Assembly (NCBI GenBank): GCA_963965975.1
Contig: OZ014425.1
Location: 1,002,501 to 1,066,500 of the forward strand
Source of the DNA: Xestospongia bergquistia
Taxonomy: Eukaryota; Porifera; Demospongiae; Haplosclerida; Petrosiidae
Reading direction: 5' to 3'
DNA length: 64,000 nt
Part shown: piece after piece, positions 271 to 15,329 of the stretch
How the letters are laid out: each line of letters begins with the position of its first letter
Position numbering within the stretch: position 1 is the first letter of the stretch
Notes under the pieces: generated by a model
What the model was told of the DNA's origin: nothing
The model's input: only the letters and a program-made list of their open reading frames with translations
Databases searched by the model: none
Program-made: the position numbers and the translations under genes

Positions 271-3200
271 TTATCTTCTCTTTTTAGCTATGGATTTAGC
301 AGCTGGTGTAGTTTTTCTCTTTTTATCATTTAATGCATACCTAAAATAAGAAAACAATGAAAATTTCAGAAACCAACATCAAATATTTATTGGCAATCAT
401 TATGTGTATAATTAATGGTGGTGTCTCACTTAGACAGTTCTAGTTTTTGTTTTAATATCCCTGTCAATATAGCCTCATTTGAACAGATAGTAATACCAGC
501 AGAAAGTGACTCTTGACATAAAGAGAGGTCACTTTCACATGATATTATAAACTCAGTGTCATTAGGCATAGTAGGACATACGGTCAGAACCTATATATTA
601 AAGACAATAAGGTATCAAGTCTTGTAGAAAGCTTACCTCTCCTCCAGCTGAATTAATAATTTCTTTCATCTCCATTGGACACGGTTTGATGTTGTCAGTC
701 ATATAGATACTCCAGTTTTTTAATAAAGGACTTCCTCTAGCTTTATTAATAGACTCAGCTAGAGAGAACTGGTATTGTCTCTCAGCTGGTCGATCGTGAA
801 TGATAAAAGGTTTGGAAGGAATGAATTGTCTTTCTTGATGACAGTGTGCCAACCATTCTGTGCTGACTATATCACACCCTCGTCCAAGACAACAGAGGAA
901 CTTGACTGTTCGGCGAACTTTATCAGTAACTAAATGAGTACATTGGGAGACGGATTCAACTAATGTCCCTCCTAGTTCTTTAACAATCTCTGTTCCCTCT
1001 TCATCTATGACACCAGTGAACATGACTTTGGGAGATTTCTCTAAGGAAGACTTTAATGGGCTGGCTATGACAGATGCAGAGCGACGAGGTATAGCTCGAA
1101 CTGAAATAATTGCTAAAAATTATGAAAACCCAAACAACTCTCTCTTACCTTTACTTTTACTTTCAGTTGTCTTACGAGAGAGTCTAGCCTTAAAAAACAA
1201 ATCAAATAAATACATTTATAATAATTAATTAATAATAATTAATTGTATAATAATTACTTTTTTAGTTTTCGGTTCAGGAGTAGACATCAAACTTGAGCTG
1301 ACAGATCCATCTTCTCTAGTTGATGCCTCAATGTCAGGAGATTCATCAGAGAACATTGTACTAGTGGGTGTGGCACTACCCACTTGTACCTTTTCCAACG
1401 ATATGGATGACTCTTTAATAGATCTCTTCTGACTATGTCTGGTTTTCTTAGCAGAAGCTGGAACGGAGACAAAAACAGATTATCATTCAAGAATGAAAAC
1501 ATTATACCTACTTGGTATTACTGATAAGGCTGATATCTTCTCATCTGTATTAAATTCTTCATGCGAAGCTGTCTTTTCTTTACTGACAATAGATTCCTCT
1601 GGTAAGGAGGTACTATCTTCTTTTATGACAGTCTCATGTGTTGGTACTTCACTGGTAAGTGTACTCTGTTCTTTAACTGGGGACTCTTCAATTACAAGCA
1701 AAGACGTGGTAGGTTCTCGTTTCGATCTAGTACTATGTCTTGTAGTTACATCTGACTGACTGACAGATTTAGTTTTTATTTGTCTAGTATTACTTCTTGT
1801 TCTCTTTTTAGACAATTGTTTTGGCTCAACTTTCTCCTCTTGCTCACCATCTGCTACTAAAGTAGATTCTACTGGTTGTATAGATTCATTTATTTTACTA
1901 GTAGAACTTCTGTTATCATTGTCTTGGCATGAGACGATCGGTTCCAGTTCCTTATCAACTCCCTCTTTAGCTTTCTTAGATGAGAAAGGTACCTCTTTAC
2001 AGGCCACCTTCTTTCTTGTTCTTTTTGTTTTGATCTCATCCTCTGTTTCTTGACTACTATTGTCGAATATAGTGGGTGGCTTTCTTTTTCTAGTACGCAG
2101 TCGAGTTATTGCACTATCTTCACTTGACACTTCATCTTTTTTTTCATTTTCGTCTTCAAGAGCAGTCCCTCCCAAGTTGTAAGCAATAGTTGCTTCAATA
2201 TCTGGCTTATCAACATCAGTTTTTGTCTCTTCTTCTTTTAAGACATAGGCGATAGTAGGTTCAAGACTATCTTCATGACAGCTGGTAGGAGGAGAATGAG
2301 TTGTATCATCTCTGTCTTGTTCTGATGCATCATACTGAACAGTAGGCTCCAATCCAATATCACAAACAGAGTTTTGTTCCTTTTCTGTGGCAGCATCTAC
2401 CGACATAAGACTAACTTGAGCTATTTCTTCATTATCTTTATTGTCCGTTTGATAATGGGTAGTCTTGTCAGGGATGTGTGAGTCATATGGTAGGGTCTGA
2501 TCATCATTATTATCTTCAGTCCCTTCATTCAGGTCATAAGGTATGGTTTTGTCAGATATGTCATGTGGTAGGGTCTGATCATCATTATCAATATTGCTAC
2601 CCTCATGGGACCCGTTTCTTGTTTCATCATTGCTACCTTCATTTAGTTCATAAGGTATAGTTTTATCAGGTACATCATATGGTAAAGTTTGGTCATTGTC
2701 TATGAAATCATTACTTATATCTCCTTCATTATCTTTGTTATAAGGAACAGTGGGGCTTGCCCCTGCAATACCAGCAAGTAATTGAGGTGAATAACACTCC
2801 ATGCTATCTTCATTATCTAAAAGAAAAGGGTACATGAGTGATTAATAGGCATAAAAGAATCAATCTATATTTTTTACTAGAGAACAATGTTAAAATTTCA
2901 CTGCTGGTAGTTATGTTTTAAAAATGTTTATCATGTAGGGAGTTATGCTTTAAGTAATGGTAGTTAACTAGTCTGTAATATATATTTCATGATATATTAT
3001 GTTGCATGAAAGATATTCCTTTTATTTTTATAGCACTGGTAGTTATGATTTCTACACTCTTGCACCGGTAGGTAGCGCTAACTTACCGGTAGTCTTATGG
3101 GGTGCCATTTATATCAAAATTAAACAATATATACATATATAATTATTGACAATGTGTAGCATTACTGATCTCTGTGACATGCTATTTTTACATGACTATT

Positions 3201-6200
3201 TGGCCCAAAGATATAGTTATATCAGCTGCAATAGCAATAACTTTAAAGATAGTGTTGTATATGACAGGTTTATTGAAACTAGTTAAATAGGTTCATTAAA
3301 CATATGTTCAACAAACAGATTCATTATATCTACAGATTTAACATAAATGTTATGTTAATCCTGTTAAAAGATTTACACAATAAAGTTCACAAAAAGAAAC
3401 AAGGAAAAGTACTTTGAAAACAATCTGCAGAAAATTATGATTTGCATTAAAAACAAGTCTTTTACTATAAAAATGAGTGAACAGATTTGAAAAAGTAGAG
3501 GCAGTTACTTAGTACTTTCTCTGATAGTAACTGTGTGTACTTACATCTGAGCACAATATATTAAACAGACTACTACACTATATTACTACTTTGTCTGATA
3601 TCATGTGGCGTTTAACAACAATCCTTCTAGTTTTAATGCTAGGATTGCAGTTAGGGACAACTGCCATTATCCAGCAGCAAGAACCAAATGATCCTTCCAA
3701 TGATGTAGAAGAAGAACAACTACAAGACTGGGAAGGATTGGAAGATACTTACAAAATGGAAGAGGAAAACCCTTCTCGTTATGTAGAAAACGATATGGAA
3801 GAGTCCATAGAAGATATTTCACTACAAAACAAAGAAGAACAGGAAGTGGAAGATGAAGAAGAAATAGGATATGAAGAGAGTCGTATTGATCTTTCTAAGA
3901 ATCAAGCAAATCAAAATGTTACATCAAGTGTTCTTCAATGTTTATTACGGAGAGATCATAGTATCAGTACACGTACTTATGCTGATAATGTTATAGTTGG
4001 AGGAAAAGGTGGCAAAAGACTAACAATCAATACAAGGGGATATAAAGGAAATCGCATAAGCAGAATCAGAGTTTGGGCACAAAAACGCTCAATAAGAGGT
4101 ATACAAGTTGACTACATTGGATGTACCAGTTTTAAACCAAAACGTTATATGTGTGGAAAAAAAATTGGTCATTCTCGTACATTTCACTTTGGGTATGGAG
4201 AACGTATTAAACAACTTAAAATATGGGGTAATAAGGGATGTGGATTACGTGGTCGTGTCAATAGAGTTGAATTTCGAACAAATCGAGGTCGTTGGTATGG
4301 CAATGGTCGCAAAGTAGGTCATCCCTATATACCTCACATTGGATCTGGGATACTTGGAGGAATGATACTTCGATGTGGAGGTGATGTTGATGCTCTTGCC
4401 TTCCTTTTGTTCAATTGAAGAACATCAACAAGAGAGTAGTAGTGTTAGTAGTATAACTTTAGAACTACTTTATAAGGAGATAGTTGTAGGTTTAGAGAAC
4501 AATATTATTAGCTCATTAGGAGTATAATGTCTTTTTTGTTCTCCTTTCAATGAAACTTTTAATTGTTTTCATTAAAAAACAACAATTAAACTTTTCATTT
4601 CAATAATGTGTGTCAACTAATGTCTGTATCTTCTAGTATTCAATATAAAACAGAAAATCTAAAAACTCATTCATGAGCATATAGCATGTATGTATGTATG
4701 TATGAGAACATACTATATGCCACACCTTAAAGTCTGAGGTAATAGACAATGTGGTTTAAGGGCTCATACAGCTAGAGTCTACTTCTGAGCAGATCATGGA
4801 TGAGTGCATGTAATTGGCTGAGGACAAGGCTATCCTTCACATTGGTTCAGGTATACCTGGAGGAATGGCACTTCAATGTGGAGGTGCTATTGATGGTCTT
4901 GCCTACTTTTTATTCACTTAATTAACAAAAAGTAGTACTAGTTTATTAGAAATAGTGCTAGATATTTTATTGAACAGTAGTACTAGTATTAGTAAATATA
5001 GTATACATTTTAAAGAGTGTGAACTATATTGATTGTTTTTATTTCAAACAATGAAAAAATCAACTCAATTTCAAGTGATTGTAGTAACTGTTATACTATC
5101 ATTAACAATATGGCTATTTTAGGATAAGATCATGAAGCAATTTACAACAATCCCTCTATAAGAATTAATAATACAGGTAGCATTATCCAATGAGAACAGA
5201 GTGGTCCTAATAAATGTATATGGAAGAGGTTACAGTGAAGTGAATATCAAATGGTATGAAAGTTGAATCAACAACTGCCAATTCTGTAGTGCTTTAAATA
5301 GTAAAACAAAGAACAAGTTTAAGATAACGACATTGTAAGTACTTTCTTATATTCTGAACAGTTGAATGCTCATACCAATTAACTTTGTTCCAATTTTTGA
5401 TTAATACAATTAAAAACAACATTTATGTTATTAATTATGATGCCCCCCTCCCCCCCCCAAAAAATATGATTTATTGTAAATTGTTGCTATGGTCACGTTG
5501 TAATAATGATTGTTGCCATGGTAATTGTTGCTATAGTGATGTGGAGCCATACAACATATTAAATTTGGTTTTGTAGCCCTGTATTCCATTTGTACAATTA
5601 ATGGAAGTTAAAGAGTGTTATACCTAGTTCACTATTGGAGCTACTACCAGTGGTAGGTAGCTTTTCAAAAAAACAACTATCCAAGAGTTCAATTAATATG
5701 AGGGTTTGATGTCTGTATACTGTGTAACACATAACAATAAGCCAGTTTACTTTATATATTGGAATGTTTACATTCATGGTGGGATATTTGGATCCATTGC
5801 TGATGTTATTATAGGGATCACTTACATAAACAGCTATTATCTATAAAAATAACAAGTAATAAAAGAAATTTATAGTACTCTCTAAACAATTCAGACTTAC
5901 AGAAAGCAGCAGATTGTACTTACATCAGAACACAATAGATTAAACAGACTACTACAATTACTACTTTCTCTGATATCATGTGGCGTTTAACAACAATCCT
6001 TCTAGTTTTAATGCTAGGATTGCAGTTAGGGACAACTGCCATTATCCAGCAGCAAGAACCAAATGATCCTTCCAATAATATGGAAGAAGAACTAAAGTAA
6101 ATACTTAATAATAATAATTACTTCCTTTTGTGGAAGTGATGTTGATGCTCTTGCCTTCCTTTTGTTCAAGTAAAGTAATAAACATCAACAAGAGAGTAGT

Positions 6201-9200
6201 AGTGTTAGTAGTATAACTTTAGAACTACTTTATAAGGAGATAGTTGTAGGTTTAGAGAACAATATTATTAGCTTATTAGGAGTATAATGTCTTTTTTGTT
6301 CTCCTTTCAATGAAACTTTTAATTGTTTTCATTAAAAAACAACAATTAAACTTTTCATTTCAATAATGTGTGTCAACTAATGTCTGTATCTTCTAGTATT
6401 CAATATAAAACAGAAAATCTAAAAACTCACTCATAAATAAATAAAATTTAAATGGTATGCCACGCAAAAATTTTAAAATTTATTCACTCTTCACCTAAAA
6501 CTAAATTTCTGCACTTTAAAACAGCTACATTTAGGGTTAAAATAACAATTCAACTAAAATATCAATATCAGAGAGTGTTCAATAGATGTCATTATTTTTT
6601 GCCTACTTATTTTAATATTAATAATTCTAAGGGACAATTAAAAACAGATAATATATAGCTACAAAAGTTTTACTGGTTATCTTTAATGACATCACAGTAT
6701 AAGAACAAACTGTAATATTTAATAGTGAGAGGAATACGTGTAAATGTCAACAGTAATAGAGGTATTAAAGAAATACAACATTTTGATCAGAACTTCAAAA
6801 ATAAATGCCTGGAAAATTTGATTTTTATAGTCAAGTTATTCAACTAAGTTGAACTAACAATAAAACAATTTTGAAAAGGCTCTTTATATATAACACTAGA
6901 AGATTATTATTGTGAAAAAAGAAGATTAAATGACACAACATAGTATATACTTAGCTAAATTCAGAACAGTGGGTTAGAATGATATCCTATGATACTCTAA
7001 AACTGATCATCACTGATCATGTGAGTAACTGAATAATACACAGTGTAATGTTATACTGTATAAAAGGTGACACTATCAGAGAATAGTCATGATCTAGTCA
7101 ACAAGGAAAAGAAGAGGAAAAATACTTGAACATTGTCCCAAAATCTTCAAGAAACAACTATGAAGTTTATCATAAACAACTCTTAGCTATAAAAAGAAAT
7201 GGATCAAATACAGTGATAGGTGATAGCTCCTTGGCATTCCCTAAACAATTCAGAAAAGAGAAAGTAACTGTTTGTGTTCACATTGAATGCTAATAAAAGC
7301 TGATCATGTGGCGTTCAATGATAATCCTTCTAGTTTTAATGATGGAACTACAACTAGAGGCAGTTATCACTACCCAGAAAGACCAGAATGAATCACCTAA
7401 TAATATGGAAAAAGAACTAGAATATTGGGAAGGATTTGAAGATACCTATAGTGTAGAGGAAGATGATGTACCTCATTATATTGAGGAAGACATAGAAACG
7501 GAAGATGAACAAGATACAATGTCACAATATGTTCCACAACATGACAAAGAACAGTCTACAAAAAATGTTACTATGACTGTAGCTCATTGCCTTCAACGGA
7601 GAGACTTTGGTGTGAATCTTCGTACTTATGCAGACAACATTCTCATTGGAGGAATAGGAGGTAGACCAATGAAGATCAACAAAGGAGGAAAGAAAGGAAA
7701 ACGCATAATCAAAATCACAATGTGGGCAAAACCTCGTGAATTAAGAGGTGTAGAAATTATTCTTGCATCAGGATGCAATGGCTACGGTCAAAGACGCTAC
7801 ATGTGTGGAACAAGAACAGGCTATCTTCGTATATTCAATTTTGCATACGGGGAACGTATTACGCAACTTAAAGTGTGGGGTAATGAACAGTGTGCTCGTG
7901 CTGGTCGTGTTACTAGAGTCTACTTTAAAACAAATAAAGGACGAAGATTTTCAATTGGACAAGCCAAAGGTTATCCCTATATTCCTCACATTGGTAGAGG
8001 TATACCTGGAGGAATGCTATTTCGATGTGGACGTGCTGTCGATGCACTTGCCTTCCTTTTGTTCAATTAATGAACATCAACAAAAAATTAATACTAGCTC
8101 ATTAGGAGCTAGTATAATTGTCTTAGTACTAGTTCAATAGGAACTAGTACAAATATCTTAGTACTAGTTCAATAGGAACTAGTACAAATATCTTAGTACT
8201 AGTTCAATAGGAACTAGTACAAATATCTTAGTACTAGTTCATTAGGAACTAGTACAAATATCTTAGTACTAGTTCAATAGGAGCTAGTGCAATTGTCTTA
8301 GTACTAGTTCAATAGGAGCTAGTACTTGTAGTGTCATTATGACTTTTGATTTTTTCTTGTTTAATATGATTCTCAATTTGTTCATATTTTAAAAGAAATA
8401 AAAGAAATCAATTCAATTAATATTACAATAATGACTACATGTACTAATTATAGGACAACAATTTCAATAATCATCAAGAATAGAGTTATAATTACTATAG
8501 GAACTTGTTAGTACTATAATTAGAAATAACCATCACAAACAATATGAACTATAAAATTGAGAAGAATACCTATGGCATGGAAGAGGAAAGCGCTAGTTAT
8601 AATTATAAGAACAACATGGACACAGAAACACCCTATACTCCACAATACAACAAGAAACATGAAAGAGGAAGACTCTTTAATTATAAAAGCAACATGCACA
8701 GTTGCATATAGAAGCCCCCCCTTAATGTTCTATATCACAATCAATAGTCTCTTCCTCCATTTTTTCTCATTCATTTAGTAACAATCTTTGACAACATAAA
8801 TACAACTTTCAGCTTTAATTTCTTTATGTCTTTACTTGTTGAATCACAATTATCTGACAATTACCTAAAGAAGAACTTATATGGTGACTAATTAGACCTA
8901 TGGACAAGCCAGAAAATGGTTCACAATAAAAATGAGCAAGTCAAAGCTACCAGGCACTCACTGGACAAAACTAAGAAGACACTATATTACTGTGACTGCA
9001 ACACTATTATTAGTTCTTCAAAATCATGTGGCATTCAACAATAATCCTTCTAGTTTTAATGCTGGGTTACAACTAGAGATAGCCACCACTCAATGGTATG
9101 ATCCTTCCAATGATATCAAAGAGCGACCGCAAGATTGGGATGAATTAGAAGACAACTACATTATTAAAAAGGAAGATCCTGCTCATTATGCTGATAAAGA

Positions 9201-11728
9201 AGGAAGTAGTAGAGGTCACTTTATGAGTAAAAAAGTCAAGACAAATGTTCCTCAATGCCTTCTATGTAGAGATAAAAATTTAAATACTCAAATTTTTGCT
9301 GATAATGCAATAGTCGGAGGAACAAGTGGTAAAGAGATAAAAATCAATATCCATGGTAATGAAAGACAACGTATAAGCAAGATCAGAATTTGGGCAGACA
9401 GGGATAGCCAAATAATGACAGGTGTAGAAGTGATAATGGGATATACTGACTACACAGCTTAAAAACCAATACGTTATTCCTGCAGACGTCTAAATGGAAT
9501 TAACAATGAACTCACATTTCAATATGGAGAACGTATTAAGGATCTTAAAATTTGGGGTGATAGCAATTGTAGAGATCCACATCCATCTAGAGTTGAATTA
9601 TGTACAAATCATGGATGAGAAATCGGACTAGGACTCAATGCACTTGCTTTTCTCTTGTTCAATTAAAGAACGCAATAATACATTAGGAGTAGCATCATTA
9701 TTAATAACTGATTTTAGTTTTAGTTTAATATAATTTACTTATTATGAATTGAATTAAACCTAATGATCAGTTGTTATTTTGTTTCTATTTTTATTGATTG
9801 TATAAACAGTCAAACAAGACCACTTAATTATAACAAAAATGATAAATATTAATTACTAATGATTATTAGGTTACAAACGTAAAGATATCAATGTAATAAT
9901 TATTACAATTAATTAGCAATAATTTAATTACCATATAACATCAATACCTATTACTAATTAAGATTAAAAAATATACTACATGAGTATGGGCAACAATTTT
10001 AAAGCTTCCAGATTGTTGAGATTGTCATTCAATGTATGCATCAAAATGACACATAATTTAGTTATCTCAATTTGAAATTCATAGCATGAACCTCACACTT
10101 AATTTTAGATAAATAATTTATCACTTTGACTACATCATGTGTATTAAACTATTAATATCAATTATTAATGTATCTCTGTTCTTTAAAATAACCAGTTCAA
10201 TGGACTCTCATATTGACAAAGGAATTTACATACATAGACAGGATGACAATGGCTAAACACATTCACCACAAAAATTATTGTAACAGTCTCTCTTTTGTTT
10301 GACAAATTAAATAATGAATTCTGACACAGTCTATACATGGACAATAGCCTCATCATTTCAGAAAGCCTCAACAGCAACAGCTGCCAATTTAAAAACTAGA
10401 ACTAAAGCTGTGTAATCATTGTCTCAATGAAAAACACTTTCTATCAATGAAGAACTTAAATACATCAACTAAAAATAGTCTTGCAGTATACATCTGCAAT
10501 TTAACAATAACTAAGCATTAGAGGACAAGTCTATGCCTTTGCAATGAATAGGTTCTCTTTGCCAAATGTTGTTTTATTGATAGCTAGTAACAATGCATAT
10601 AATAGTAACTGTTAGTCAAGTCCTGATCATTTTTAAAAGCAAATAAAGACAATTCATTCTTCAACTAAGTAAAAAGTGGCTCATTAAATTACCTTTTTGT
10701 TAAGTATCTAACTCAATCTTACTGATGACTGAGAACATCTGTCATCGGTAAGATCCAAATTAAATGAACAATTTTGTGAGGAGAAATAACATTTCTTAGT
10801 ATTGATTTTAATATGTTATTATGACACTGTATAAAAATTATTTACATTTTAGACATACAGTCTAGAAAGATTATTAAGACTATTAATTTCTCTATTTTAA
10901 CAATGTGGTATTAACGATGACATCACATGTAGACAGATTTTGGTGTGCTAGAGTCCCTTCAACAAAACTTTAGTAATTTTTAAAAGCTACCAATAGTCTA
11001 ATATATATAAAAACTTGTATTAACTAACCTGGTATGAATTGAGGTGGCTCTTTTGTTAAAAGATTTGGAGAATGTGGAGAAGGAGAATGAAGTAACTTTG
11101 GTTTTGGAGAAGGTGTAGCAGTGTCATCAGTCACATCTGATAGCTTTTCATTAAGTAGAAATATATCAGGAGTATTGTCATTATCGGATAACAATAAGTG
11201 AGATGAGGCAGGATTTGTGGATTTGCTGTACTCTTTATCAGCTGGTGGTGATGTCTGGCAATAATACCGGCAGGAAATGTTTGCTAATGTTAGTTCTATA
11301 TTATCTACAAGTTCATAGTAAGTATGTGGGCGTAGACAATGTTTACGACGATAAGTCTTATTCTGACTAGCAAGATCCATAATGAAATGTTCATCTTCTT
11401 CAATTAAGATACAACAGTGTTTACGAGAGAGACTACTTAATGGAAGAGCTAGTTGACATACATCTTTTTTACGACCAATGATAGTTTCACCTGTTAATAT
11501 TAAACATATATATAATATATTCATATATAGATTAAGCATAAAAGTCATGTGGCATTACAGTAATCAAAGTTAAGTAGTCTTAACAAGCTTAACAATTAAT
11601 TTACTGTTGTTATTAGCTTTAAGTTATTTTTATTTACCTGGATATATGTTATAATCTGTGTAAGATTGAGTATGATCGTCTGAAGAATAGTATATGCGTA
11701 ATACAGCTACATGTGAGCCTCCCGCCAT
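271..11728 (-). CDS. MDC1: MDC1-like mediator of DNA damage checkpoint (FHA + tandem BRCT)
   Basis: In animals MDC1 is a nuclear scaffold that binds gamma-H2AX through its tandem BRCT and recruits repair factors. Eight exons can be joined in phase (930 codons plus stop): 11638-11728, 11029-11490, 1512-2816, 1258-1457, 1149-1188, 637-1100, 430-590 and 271-340. An N-terminal FHA domain (about residues 8-112) has the IIGR and SLSRKH motifs. An acidic region with T-x-x-Y repeats follows, then a Lys/Arg/Ser-rich stretch, then BRCT1 from about residue 725 (FTGV...; TEWLAHC) and BRCT2 (ISCESD; LTGILKQ), and a basic tail ending KKRR. The FHA exon ends in phase 1 and the acidic exon opens in phase 1, which supports one gene across an 8.2-kb intron. 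The start is the first ATG before the FHA strand, in context AAAATGG. The C-terminal splice at 430/340 bypasses a stop just beyond the donor. Joining the two halves is inference; domain identity is strong. Confidence 0.85.
2170..2760 (-). repeat. Ten degenerate T-x-x-Y repeats encoded in MDC1 exon 3
   Basis: The acidic exon encodes about ten copies of a motif of the form T-[LIVT]-[PQAH]-[YH]: TVPY, TLPY, TIPY, TLPH, TIPY, TLPY, TTHY, TVQY, TIAY and TIAY. They are usually preceded by D-Q, D-K or E-P and followed by D, N or L. Spacing is irregular, about 13-50 residues. They sit where vertebrate MDC1 carries its TQxF cluster, which when phosphorylated recruits the RNF8 FHA domain. Confidence 0.75.
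3466..3473 (+). promoter_or_regulatory. TATA-type element upstream of jacalin-like gene 1
   Basis: TATAAAAA lies 137 bases before the ATG at 3603. The same string lies at nearly the same distance before the deleted copy (5842, 136 bases) and before gene 2 (7188, 118 bases). In the damaged copy the matching site near 8924 reads AATAAAAA. The conserved position across copies supports a core promoter role. Confidence 0.5.
3603..4418 (+). CDS. Secreted jacalin-like (beta-prism) protein, copy 1
   Basis: Single-exon, 271-residue protein. The start is ATG-TGG-CG, conserved in every copy, so an upstream in-frame extension is not used. Residues 1-22 form a signal peptide (MWRLTTILLVLMLGL...). A strongly acidic propeptide-like segment (about 25-105) precedes a basic, glycine-rich domain of about 165 residues with jacalin-fold spacing: N-x-I-V-G-G-x-G-G, R-I-S-R-I-R-V, GERIKQLKIWG, RVEFRTNRGR, and a C-terminal GGM...VDALAFLLFN. 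Four cysteines recur in gene 2. Jacalin-type domains usually bind carbohydrate, so an extracellular lectin role is inferred. It lies on the opposite strand inside MDC1 intron 2. The fold call rests on motif pattern only. Confidence 0.7.
   Translation: MWRLTTILLVLMLGLQLGTTAIIQQQEPNDPSNDVEEEQLQDWEGLEDTYKMEEENPSRYVENDMEESIEDISLQNKEEQEVEDEEEIGYEESRIDLSKNQANQNVTSSVLQCLLRRDHSISTRTYADNVIVGGKGGKRLTINTRGYKGNRISRIRVWAQKRSIRGIQVDYIGCTSFKPKRYMCGKKIGHSRTFHFGYGERIKQLKIWGNKGCGLRGRVNRVEFRTNRGRWYGNGRKVGHPYIPHIGSGILGGMILRCGGDVDALAFLLFN
4419..4831. other. 3' flank of jacalin-like gene 1; no gene seen
   Basis: Stop-rich sequence. The first 260 bases are almost identical to 6178-6440 downstream of the internally deleted copy, so it is probably a 3' UTR carried along in a duplication. 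A short TATG run sits near 4688-4703. Confidence 0.6.
4832..4921 (+). pseudogene. 3'-end relic of a jacalin-like copy
   Basis: An isolated 30-codon frame ending in TAA encodes the family C-terminus (HIGSGIPGGM...CGGAID...LF). Nothing upstream continues the domain, so this is the tail of a lost copy. Confidence 0.75.
4922..5924. other. MDC1 intron 2, no gene seen
   Basis: AT-rich sequence with stops in all frames. It has a C-run near 5446-5458 and no convincing splice-bounded exon. The TATAAAAA at 5842 belongs to the deleted jacalin-like copy downstream. Confidence 0.5.
5925..6440 (+). pseudogene. Internally deleted jacalin-like copy
   Basis: The 5' flank and first 36 codons (ATG 5978) match copy 1 (3545-3705) almost base for base. 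The 3' end from 6131 matches 4383-4680. About 670 bases of coding sequence between these points are missing and replaced by a short AT-rich stretch. The remaining frame stops at 6100 after 40 residues, leaving only signal peptide and acidic start. A secreted 40-residue peptide cannot be excluded. Confidence 0.85.
6441..7305. other. MDC1 intron 2 between jacalin-like copies
   Basis: Low-complexity AT-rich DNA without a supportable gene. It includes the TATA-type element at 7188-7195 and another TATAAAAGG at 7058-7066 upstream of the next copy. Confidence 0.5.
7306..8070 (+). CDS. Secreted jacalin-like (beta-prism) protein, copy 2
   Basis: Intact single-exon paralogue, 254 residues. It has a signal peptide (MWRSMIILLVLM...), an acidic segment to about residue 88, then the basic Gly-rich domain: ADNILIGGIGGR, KRIIKITMWA, GERITQLKVWG, RVYFKTNKGRR, GGM, VDALAFLLFN. 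It keeps the cysteine pattern of copy 1 (CNGY...YMCG, ...EQCARAG, ...FRCG). Differences from copy 1 are mainly in the acidic part. The paired acidic and basic halves may keep the protein soluble until cleaved, as in other acidic-propeptide proteins; that is inference. It is followed by a hairpin repeat array. Confidence 0.7.
   Translation: MWRSMIILLVLMMELQLEAVITTQKDQNESPNNMEKELEYWEGFEDTYSVEEDDVPHYIEEDIETEDEQDTMSQYVPQHDKEQSTKNVTMTVAHCLQRRDFGVNLRTYADNILIGGIGGRPMKINKGGKKGKRIIKITMWAKPRELRGVEIILASGCNGYGQRRYMCGTRTGYLRIFNFAYGERITQLKVWGNEQCARAGRVTRVYFKTNKGRRFSIGQAKGYPYIPHIGRGIPGGMLFRCGRAVDALAFLLFN
8092..8326. repeat. 35-bp tandem repeat, each unit a perfect hairpin
   Basis: Six to seven units at 35-base spacing (for example 8121, 8156, 8191). 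Each holds the inverted repeat GTACTAGTTC-AATAG-GAACTAGTAC with 10-bp arms and a 5-base loop, separated by AAATATCTTA. Some units have paired changes (GAACTAG to GAGCTAG). It lies 20 bases after the stop codon of jacalin-like copy 2, so it is probably within its 3' UTR. Confidence 0.9.
8327..9025. other. Spacer before the damaged jacalin-like copy
   Basis: AT-rich with no supportable gene. An open frame from ATG 8932 runs into the damaged copy, but its first 40 residues do not resemble the family and it probably reads promoter and 5' UTR sequence. Confidence 0.45.
9026..9665 (+). pseudogene. Frame-damaged jacalin-like copy
   Basis: ATG-TGG-CATTC at 9026 opens the usual signal peptide (MWHSTIILLVLMLG), but one base is missing near 9062, so the frame stops at once and the rest lies in another frame. 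In that frame the acidic segment and first half of the beta-prism domain (ADNAIVGGTSG, RISKIRIWA) are readable to a TAA at 9460. Further on, GERIKDLKIWG is readable, then a TGA near 9616, then ALAFLLFN to 9665. The GGM segment is lost. Multiple independent lesions mark it as dead, although the open 176-residue frame from 8932 might still be translated. Confidence 0.8.
9666..11028. other. Remainder of MDC1 intron 2
   Basis: No gene seen. AT-rich with short, unsupported frames. Confidence 0.5.
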
Positions 11729-11888
11729 TTTGATAATTAAAAACTGATGTGGGTGGATACGTTTTGGGGGCGTAGCTCAACTTGCAGACCTACAAGTACA
11801 AAATCTTCACAGCTTGTTATCACAGCAGTCACATCTATTGAGTGCTACATCTCAATTGTTGAGTGAATGGATGAATTGACGAGGGGAT

Positions 11889-12943
11889 ATGCATTGGAGT
11901 ATCAGATATTGCTTAGTATTAGTGATAGGATTTACCATTGGAATTTTCTTATGGACAGTTTATGTATTCTACTCAACTGAAATTACTGAATATGGATCAA
12001 TTGCAGCAGATGAATTTATGTCTAATAAACCAGTCATCAAAATGTCAACATATGCTACAAGTGAGAAACAAAGTTTTAAGATAAAGACACAATCTGTTTT
12101 TCACAAAAATAAAGTGTCTGGAAGTCAGGTATTGCTCTACATTGGTCTTGTAACATCAAATGAATATATCAACACTCGTGGTATTGCTATCAATAGGACA
12201 TGGGGACAGTTAGCTACTGCTCTAGAATATTATGTTGGTGAGGGAATAACCTCACATTCTTTGCCTTTAGTTAGCTTACCAGGTACAGATGATTCTTATC
12301 CACCTCAAAAGAAAGTCTTTCACATGTACAGATACATGTATGATCACTACATTGACCAATATGATTGGTTCATGAGAGCTGATGATGATCTCTATGTAAG
12401 AATTCCAGAACTGATGAAATTTCTTTCCAAACAAGATCCCAATAAAGAATTATATTTAGGATCTCCTGCACGTGGTAGACCAGAGGATAGAGAACGTCTA
12501 AAATTAGACAGTAAAGAGTTGTACTGTATGGGAGGAACTGGTGTGATATTGAGTCGAGCATTACTCACAAAACTCGGTCCTCATCTTCAAGACTGTTTAA
12601 AGAATGTTGTTGTCTCATGGAATGAAGATGTAGAGGTTGGTCGTTGTATTAGCCATAAACTTGGAATACAATGTAAGAAATCTCAAAAGTCTAATAAGGT
12701 ATACAATATATTTTTATATAATTAATATCTATAATTATCTGATAGTTATTACAGAGCAAGATGTTTTTTAATGACTACAGCAATGGTGGAAAACTTTTCA
12801 ACAAGGACGGCACCTTAAAAGATTTGGATGCTAAAACAAGGAAAGAGTTATCTCATATACTTACCTTTCATCCCTTGAAGTCTCAAGCAAAAATGTTCAG
12901 TATTCATAAGTACTTTATGGATCAAACCAGCATCCGATATTAG
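11889..12943 (+). CDS. Single-domain GT31 glycosyltransferase, chondroitin-synthase-like, copy 1
   Basis: Type II Golgi membrane protein of 332 residues from two exons (11889-12698, 12755-12943, phase 0). It has a short cytosolic N-terminus, a TM anchor (about 8-28) and a luminal stem. The catalytic domain resembles the N-terminal GT31 half of CHSY1: LYIGLVTS, RTWG, DDSYPPQKK, WFMRADDDLY with the metal-binding DDD, CMGGTGVILSR, EDVEVGRC. In CHSY proteins this half is tied to beta-1,3-glucuronosyl transfer in chondroitin synthesis. The second (GT7) half is absent; the protein ends where CHSY1 domain 1 ends (LTFHPLKSQ...). The substrate here is therefore open. It is divergent from MDC1, with 160 bases between the start codons. 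Confidence 0.85.
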
Positions 12944-14272: not shown

Positions 14273-15329
14273 ATGGAAATACATTGGAGTATCAGATATA
14301 GTCTAAATTTAGTGATAGGATTTGCCTTTGGATTTTCTGTGTGGACGATTTACATGGTCTACTCAACAGATAATACATTGACGACAATAGGCGACGGTGG
14401 TGTATCGCGGTTTACGCCAGAAGAACCCGTCGTCAAATTGTCGATATACACTACAAAAGGAAAATACAGCTACGAGAAACTAAAACAACCTGTTTTTCAC
14501 AAAAATAAAGTGTCTGGAAGTCAGGTATCACTCTACATTGGTCTTGTAACATCACATGAATATATCAACACTCGTGGTATTGCTATCAATAAGACATGGG
14601 GACAGTTAGCTACTGCTCTAGAATACTATATTGGTGAGGGACTAACCTCACATTCTTTGCCTATAGTTAGCTTACCAGGTACAGATGATTCTTATCCACC
14701 TCAAAAGAAAGTCTTTCACATGTACAGATACATGTATGATCACTACATTGACCAATATGATTGGTTCATGAGAGCTGATGATGATCTCTATGTAAGAATT
14801 CCAGAACTGATGAAATTTCTTTCCAAACAAGATCCCAATAAAGAATTATATTTAGGATCTCCAGCACGTGGTAAACCAGAGGATAGAGAACGTCTAAAAT
14901 TAGACAGTAAAGAGTTATACTGTATGGGAGGAACTGGTGTGATATTGAGTCGAGCATTACTCACAAAACTCGGTCCTCATCTTCAAGACTGCTTAAAGAA
15001 TGTTGTCGTCTCATGGAATGAAGATGTAGAGGTTGGTCGTTGTATTAGCCATAAACTTGGAATACAATGTAAACAAAATAAGGTATGTATATCAAAATAA
15101 ATTACCATGTATATTATTGGTGAGCATTTTTTACTTTCAGAATATGAAGTTTAGTAAGATGTTTTTTAATGACTACAGTAAAGGAAGCATATTCAATAAA
15201 GATGGCACCTTAAAAGATTTGGATGCGAAAACAAGAAAAAAGTTATCTCACATACTTACCTTTCATCCCTTGAAGTCTCAAACAAAAATGTTCAGCTTTC
15301 ATAAGTACTTTATGGATAAAGATAATTAG
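14273..15329 (+). CDS. Single-domain GT31 glycosyltransferase, chondroitin-synthase-like, copy 2
   Basis: Tandem paralogue of the gene at 11889, also 332 residues in two exons (14273-15082, 15141-15329) with the same splice site. The catalytic domain is nearly identical in both protein and DNA (DDSYPPQKK, RADDDLY, CMGGTGVILSR, EDVEVGRC). The stem (about residues 30-80) is clearly different, and its codons are richer in CG than the rest. The last exon has NMKFSKMFF where copy 1 has SKMFF. A recent tandem duplication with the catalytic part kept alike, by purifying selection or gene conversion, is inferred. Confidence 0.85.

Follow-up and report, generated by a model that had tools for sequence, protein, structure and literature searches.

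A cluster of jacalin-family genes on the opposite strand of a long MDC1 intron in the sponge Xestospongia bergquistia

The second intron of an MDC1-type gene in Xestospongia bergquistia very probably houses an ordinary opposite-strand nested cluster, in which a jacalin-family gene landed in the intron, was duplicated there and retains its own transcription. The window analysed is a stretch of 64,000 nucleotides from contig OZ014425.1, and all coordinates without a contig name refer to it. The genome holding it comprises 146 Mb in 21 contigs. On the minus strand, the gene model gave a complete MDC1-type gene of 8 exons encoding 930 aa, with an N-terminal FHA domain and a C-terminal tandem BRCT.

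MDC1 exon 1, 11638..11728, minus strand: carries the start codon and the beginning of the FHA region, in a 30-codon open frame with donor CAG/GTAAAT, ending in phase 1.
MDC1 exon 2, 11029..11490, minus strand: FHA domain (PF00498, 42.8 bits).
MDC1 intron 2, 2817..11028, minus strand: host of the cluster, 8,212 nt, phase 1, with GT at 11028-11027 and AG at 2818-2817 next to a pyrimidine tract.
MDC1 exon 3, 1512..2816, minus strand: acidic region with a T-x-x-Y array, inside a 452-codon open frame; coding score 0.225, as for other exons.
MDC1 exon 4, 1258..1457, minus strand: joins in frame in the model.
MDC1 exon 5, 1149..1188, minus strand: joins in frame in the model.
MDC1 exon 6, 637..1100, minus strand: BRCT region; top PDB match human MDC1 2etx, E 2.2e-35.
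MDC1 exon 7, 590-430, minus strand: rest of the second BRCT (read by eye), joined in frame in the model.
MDC1 exon 8, 340-271, minus strand: basic C-terminal tail, predicted solely from splice sites and frame.

Each of the seven modelled introns had GT-AG ends (147, 8212, 54, 69, 48, 46 and 89 nt). Exon 2 ended at 11029 and was followed by GTTAGT, and exon 3 began at 2816, preceded by CCCTTTTCTTTTAG. The modelled junction was in phase 1, with the split codon G/AT giving Asp across 8,212 nt. The sequence-only reading had placed the FHA and acidic/BRCT exons 8.2 kb apart with a phase 1 join, which was confirmed by the GT-AG ends, the intron length and the Asp junction. Its further proposal that one MDC1 gene crosses the cluster is upheld by the in-frame eight-exon model, both halves of which match MDC1, and so appears sound at the level of predicted genes.

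Intron 2 is long for a sponge, as Amphimedon introns have a reported median of 71 bp and mean of 256 bp (PMC5429095), and it far exceeds the six other introns of the same gene (46-147 nt). These lengths would suit a division into two genes, a short one made of the FHA exons and a second made of the acidic/BRCT exons. Against this, the exon 2/3 join was in frame with plausible splice sites, the cluster accounts for most of the length of intron 2, and MDC1 was matched by the FHA half and the BRCT half alike. The match of the FHA exon in the PDB was weak, with the plant FHA protein DDL (E 1.7e-4) slightly ahead of MDC1 3va1 (E 7.6e-4). Within its own genome the FHA exon matched only itself at E up to 1, and the BRCT exon had two further matches (E 1.4e-5 and 4.1e-4); neither half had a comparable copy elsewhere in the genome. 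No relatives of the BRCT exon outside this genome were confirmed in the genome contigs searched. An FHA domain together with a tandem BRCT is reported for every metazoan MDC1 examined (119, sponges to mammals; PMC11014961), which a single gene across the long intron fits. Taken together, a division into two genes is extremely unlikely.

Candidate MDC1 exons missed within intron 2 were also considered. Three of the four minus-strand frames scored low (0.007, 0.012 and 0.082). The fourth, at 3670-3894 (score 0.233), is antisense to a nested gene, gene A, and may owe its score to that gene alone.

Two intact genes, A and B, had coding sequences lying wholly within the modelled intron 2 (2817-11028), on the strand opposite to MDC1.

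Gene A, 3603-4418, plus strand: intact single frame, 271 aa; PF01419 36.7 bits; coding score 0.235.
Gene B, 7306-8070, plus strand: intact single frame, 254 aa; PF01419 22.8 bits; coding score 0.268.

Both shared a layout of hydrophobic leader (recognised by eye), acidic linker and cationic jacalin domain, and were 51% identical. The curated cut-off of PF01419 is 22 bits, which gene B passed by just 0.8 bits. In the genome-wide Pfam search, A was among the 6 matches and B was absent. The description of the antisense family as secreted and jacalin-like thus seems apt, given that both genes passed the cut-off, B barely, and have apparent leaders. Differences between A and B fell at the first, second and third codon positions in numbers of 84, 69 and 110, with an NG86 dN/dS of 0.39 and a synonymous divergence of about 1. 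The motifs GGxGG and GxxxD, which may bear on sugar binding, were found in A and B. The products of A and B are probably secreted and likely glycan-binding, with a probable role in defence or at the surface.

The charges of linker and jacalin domain were -25/+26 in A and -18/+24 in B, and the balance was looser in the relatives (C3a -6/+9, C4a -22/+14, C7 -8/+1; names denote contigs). As a side observation, the two charges nearly cancel in A and B and an RRD stands at the border, an arrangement like a possible cleavable masking segment. The closest solved relatives of A were natterin-like proteins (5zu4, E 5.8e-8; next 4.1e-7). The structure predicted for A, built from A and B only, had a mean pLDDT of 38.8, too poor for a fold search or for recognising a beta-prism fold.

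Natterin-like proteins (5zu4, 4zno) combine a jacalin with an aerolysin module. The jacalin domain of A matches that of 5zu4, and relatives on contigs C4 and C14 retain an aerolysin-like second module, as seen by eye. In contrast, the proteins of A and B close with the jacalin domain, no aerolysin-like module following it, and the intron held no credible remnant of one. The best candidates in the search of intron 2 scored 0.46 with the C4a module and 0.025 with the C14a module, the latter over a frame upstream of and into the broken copy E; neither was credited. A natterin domain is reported in Amphimedon (PMC8402412).

Besides A and B, the intron contained three broken copies, two possible relics and a tandem array.

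Copy C, about 4700-5047, plus strand: C-terminal part with stops; blastn E 4e-30 to A, and tblastn pieces with stops.
Copy D, 5902-6450, plus strand: ends 96-97% like A; lacks the middle and with it most of the jacalin domain.
Copy E, about 8979-9693, plus strand: leader out of frame with the rest, two in-frame stops, C-terminus partly missing.
Possible relic F, 8556-8672, plus strand: linker-like fragment; blastn E 8e-5.
Possible relic G, 5105-5158, plus strand: start-of-gene fragment; blastn E 6e-4.
Tandem array, 8088-8325, plus strand: 35-bp unit in 6.8 copies, directly after gene B.

By eye, the 35-bp unit of the array contains an inverted repeat around ACTAGT. The two ends of D were identical to A at 132/136 and 305/317 positions, and the match between D and A extended into approximately 270 nt of 3' flank and some of the 5' flank. 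With ends 96-97% like A, against an A/B synonymous divergence of about 1, the duplication that gave D was recent relative to the A/B split. The five family traces of the sequence-only reading, two of them intact, were all recovered as A, B and the broken C, D and E, every one opposite to MDC1. Its picture of a birth-and-death cluster was likewise borne out, birth by the near-identical partial copy D and death by the broken C, D and E.

Relics F and G were compared with 12 control stretches on both strands (24 strand-stretches), two of which (L043, L044) contain distant jacalin genes. With blastn, 1/24 held a close family member (E 8e-14), and the lowest E among the other 23 was 0.003. At the protein level, F gave tblastn values of 0.004 and 0.05, no better than the acidic-linker matches in controls, which reached 0.05 in one and 2.7e-6 in L042 (computed without composition correction; the same stretch scored 0.135 in the genome search). 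Since F fails the protein-level controls and both F and G are possible only, a fair count of family traces in the intron is five and the upper count seven. The L042 match (C12:557896-558036) is an acidic-linker-like stretch in an otherwise coiled-coil-like frame, possibly there by chance.

Family-assigned sequence covered 4,390/8,212 nt, or 53% of intron 2, a generous figure that counts weak flanks, F, G and the tandem array. The nested cluster thus largely explains the length of the intron. A mobile-element origin of the intron was also searched for, with little result from three stretches: 9700-11020 and 6450-7180 gave no match beyond their own positions, and for 2830-3560 two short matches elsewhere turned up (46 and 39 nt). 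The method passes over simple repeats and highly frequent words, and the evidence against such an origin is therefore weak.

A common promoter-like box, CTATAAAA (TATAAAA preceded by C), lay upstream of the start codon in three of the nested copies.

Box CTATAAAA of gene A, 3465..3472, plus strand: TATA 137 bp before the ATG.
Box CTATAAAA of copy D, starting at 5841, plus strand: TATA 136 bp before the ATG.
Box CTATAAAA of gene B, starting at 7187, plus strand: TATA 118 bp before the ATG.

The box was absent from the 170 nt examined for copy E. It also occurred upstream of non-nested start codons, at 127 bp in C3 copies (two of the four intact copies were inspected) and at 131 bp in C7. Exact matches numbered 31 in 448,000 strand-bases, approximately 0.002 per 25-nt window, a count that includes family boxes lying in the counted stretches. 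None of the four aerolysin-type genes inspected (C4a, C4b, C14a and C14b, out of 5) had it at the matching place; C14a and C14b carried other TATA-like words at -125 and -124. TATA boxes are reported in 26% of surveyed Amphimedon promoters (PMC4773876). The box common to nested and non-nested copies suggests that the nested genes use their own promoter, as the non-nested copies would.

With three broken copies among the five clear ones, all of them, A and B included, might be silent passengers. We consider this very unlikely for A and B, however, since their frames run uninterrupted for 271 and 254 codons, diverge above all at third positions, score as coding and retain the CTATAAAA box.

When the genome was searched at the protein level with A, 19 matches had E up to 10; six fell in intron 2. 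Of the 13 others, five lay on C3 (four intact, one with stops), one on C7, three on C4, where one lacked a normal leader, and two on C14; the last two were weak matches on C3 (0.069) and C12 (0.135). The C3 copies stood tail-to-tail with 3' exons of a PI3-kinase gene (exons named by eye), with which they were co-duplicated. At C3:2299555-2323850 (L030-L032), tandem units of PI3-kinase 3' exons and an opposite-strand jacalin gene contained stretches reaching 99.55% identity, and hAT-like transposase frames lay close by (by eye). The dN/dS between C3 copies was 2.18, from 9 differences only. No sign of nesting of the C3 copies was seen, gene models having been built for only some family neighbours. 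C4:7516764-7539031 and C14:700771-704646 together held five jacalin plus aerolysin-like genes (natterin-type, by eye), 4/5 of which had the leader and acidic linker. Those on C4 adjoin whole or partial copies of an apparent microsomal triglyceride transfer protein gene. Outside the sponge, one jacalin match was found on a Rhizobium plasmid (E 7e-7, 29.5% identity), and none of the family in viral contigs, searched with patterns from the linker only.

In trees of the jacalin part, A, B and the C3 copies formed one unresolved group, and a clade of A+B, or of A+B+E, was neither supported nor rejected. More than one arrival in the intron is therefore possible. All intact family members examined read as single-exon frames, which would also be expected of retrocopies of mRNA. 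A retroposed origin is nevertheless very improbable, because D has the 5' and 3' flank of A, the C3 duplication units also contain PI3-kinase exons and the DNA between, and CTATAAAA, which precedes the likely start, has been carried along with the copies. The shared 5' and 3' flank of D and A is what DNA duplication would be expected to leave.

Under the preferred reading of an ordinary nested cluster, a gene for a secreted jacalin-family protein would have landed in MDC1 intron 2 as DNA, presumably as a single copy, together with its TATA-type promoter and 3' end. It would then have been duplicated in place at least four, perhaps six times, leaving two copies intact and the rest decayed. Transcription of MDC1 would run across the cluster on the opposite strand, and splicing would take out the 8.2-kb intron and the nested genes with it. 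The nested genes would be read from their own promoters on the opposite strand, and their start and polyadenylation signals would go unread by the MDC1 polymerase; the opposite orientation would keep these polyadenylation signals out of the MDC1 transcript. The nested products would be secreted, with the acidic linker balancing a cationic, putatively sugar-binding jacalin domain.

Nested transcription might alternatively interfere with MDC1 through collision, antisense RNA, intron retention or early polyadenylation. Interference by nested genes and intronic elements has been described, and the expression of some nested genes correlates negatively with that of the host (PMC3192792). Here, read-through of the donor gives FHA, Gly and a stop (ORF 11024-11554), so a failure to splice intron 2 would yield an FHA-only protein, as the exon 2 frame stops one codon later. 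Of the ways in which the cluster might affect its host, this is the most concrete. The MDC1 strand of intron 2 also carries 11 AATAAA; the other strand carries 13, so the former are not special in AT-rich DNA. In Drosophila, moreover, the gene 2mit lies inside tim2 with no functional relation to its host (PMC3786989). Such regulatory coupling is decidedly unlikely. Very unlikely, too, is a switch by which induction of the lectins, as in immunity, shifts MDC1 from the full scaffold to an FHA-only fragment; if true, it would tie DNA-damage signalling to a secreted defence family.

The arrangement had been called unusual, a view we do not share, as nesting is common in kind, including in some sponges (PMC10282587, PMC3192792). 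Nested genes number 3,358/43,615 in Amphimedon queenslandica and 2,432/19,578 in Aphrocallistes vastus (PMC10282587, Table 1), with 83 in Oopsacas and 0 in Ephydatia; the low counts in some genomes probably stem from the annotation method (PMC10282587). Among human nested genes, 63% are on the opposite strand and 41% are single-exon (PMC3192792). As in the intronic nested genes of Amphimedon, Aphrocallistes, Drosophila and human, whole single-exon genes sit here in a host intron, on the opposite strand and unrelated to the host. In contrast to these, the nest is a small family with broken copies rather than one gene, and the host is MDC1. The Drosophila gene 2mit is likewise an opposite-strand protein gene within a host, tim2, that is tied to chromosomal stability, but it is a single gene whose nesting is conserved across Drosophila, and the source describes no functional link and no family expansion (PMC3786989). 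Glassin of glass sponges is also a single-exon sponge gene nested in a host gene; it belongs to another family, and its nesting is common to two species (PMC10282587), whereas the present nest was examined in one. Titles and abstract openings of the literature matches listed on nested genes, sponge jacalin/aerolysin, the compact Amphimedon genome (10 of 50), nested lectin clusters (8 of 42), sponge MDC1 and MDC1 motifs (in part 10 of 27) gave no account of this MDC1/lectin nest.

The host protein itself showed a further feature. The exon 3 frame contained nine T-x-x-Y motifs (among them TLPYD, TIPYE, TVQYD and TIAYN), compared with an average of 1.06 and a maximum of 5 in 2,000 shuffles; as some sit in repeated segments, the nine are not all independent. 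The whole 930-aa protein had 10, against a shuffle mean of 2.13 (highest of 5,000 shuffles: 9). TQ pairs were absent from exon 3 and occurred once in the 930 aa (TQSY in exon 1), and TQxF and SDT repeats were absent from the predicted protein. It therefore resembles animal MDC1 in its N-terminal FHA and C-terminal tandem BRCT, but differs in having a T-x-x-Y array without TQxF or SDT repeats. TQxF repeats are reported for invertebrate MDC1 (PMC11014961) and are present in some non-vertebrate MDC1 (PMC11884936). A Pellino 1 FHA fragment binds tightly a phosphopeptide with Tyr at +3 (PMC11884936), so the array could recruit FHA-type ubiquitin ligases without the ATM consensus. It may take the place of the TQxF motifs that dock ligases in other MDC1 proteins. 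The array is a side finding, perhaps worth more than the nest.

At the 5' end of the host (11728-11889), MDC1 stood head to head with a Fringe/galactosyltransferase-like gene on the plus strand (from 11889), with 160 bp between the start codons. The spacing makes a shared promoter of the two genes possible. A second close copy of the Fringe/galactosyltransferase-like gene begins near 14273 (by eye).

The nest is a clear example of the common genes-within-genes arrangement. Within a single intron of a conserved DNA-repair gene, and in a compact genome, it cleanly displays the turnover of a gene family. It also provides a natural experiment on whether the host pays a price for opposite-strand nesting. 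If host and cluster were coupled, the nest would connect genome surveillance with a secreted lectin family.
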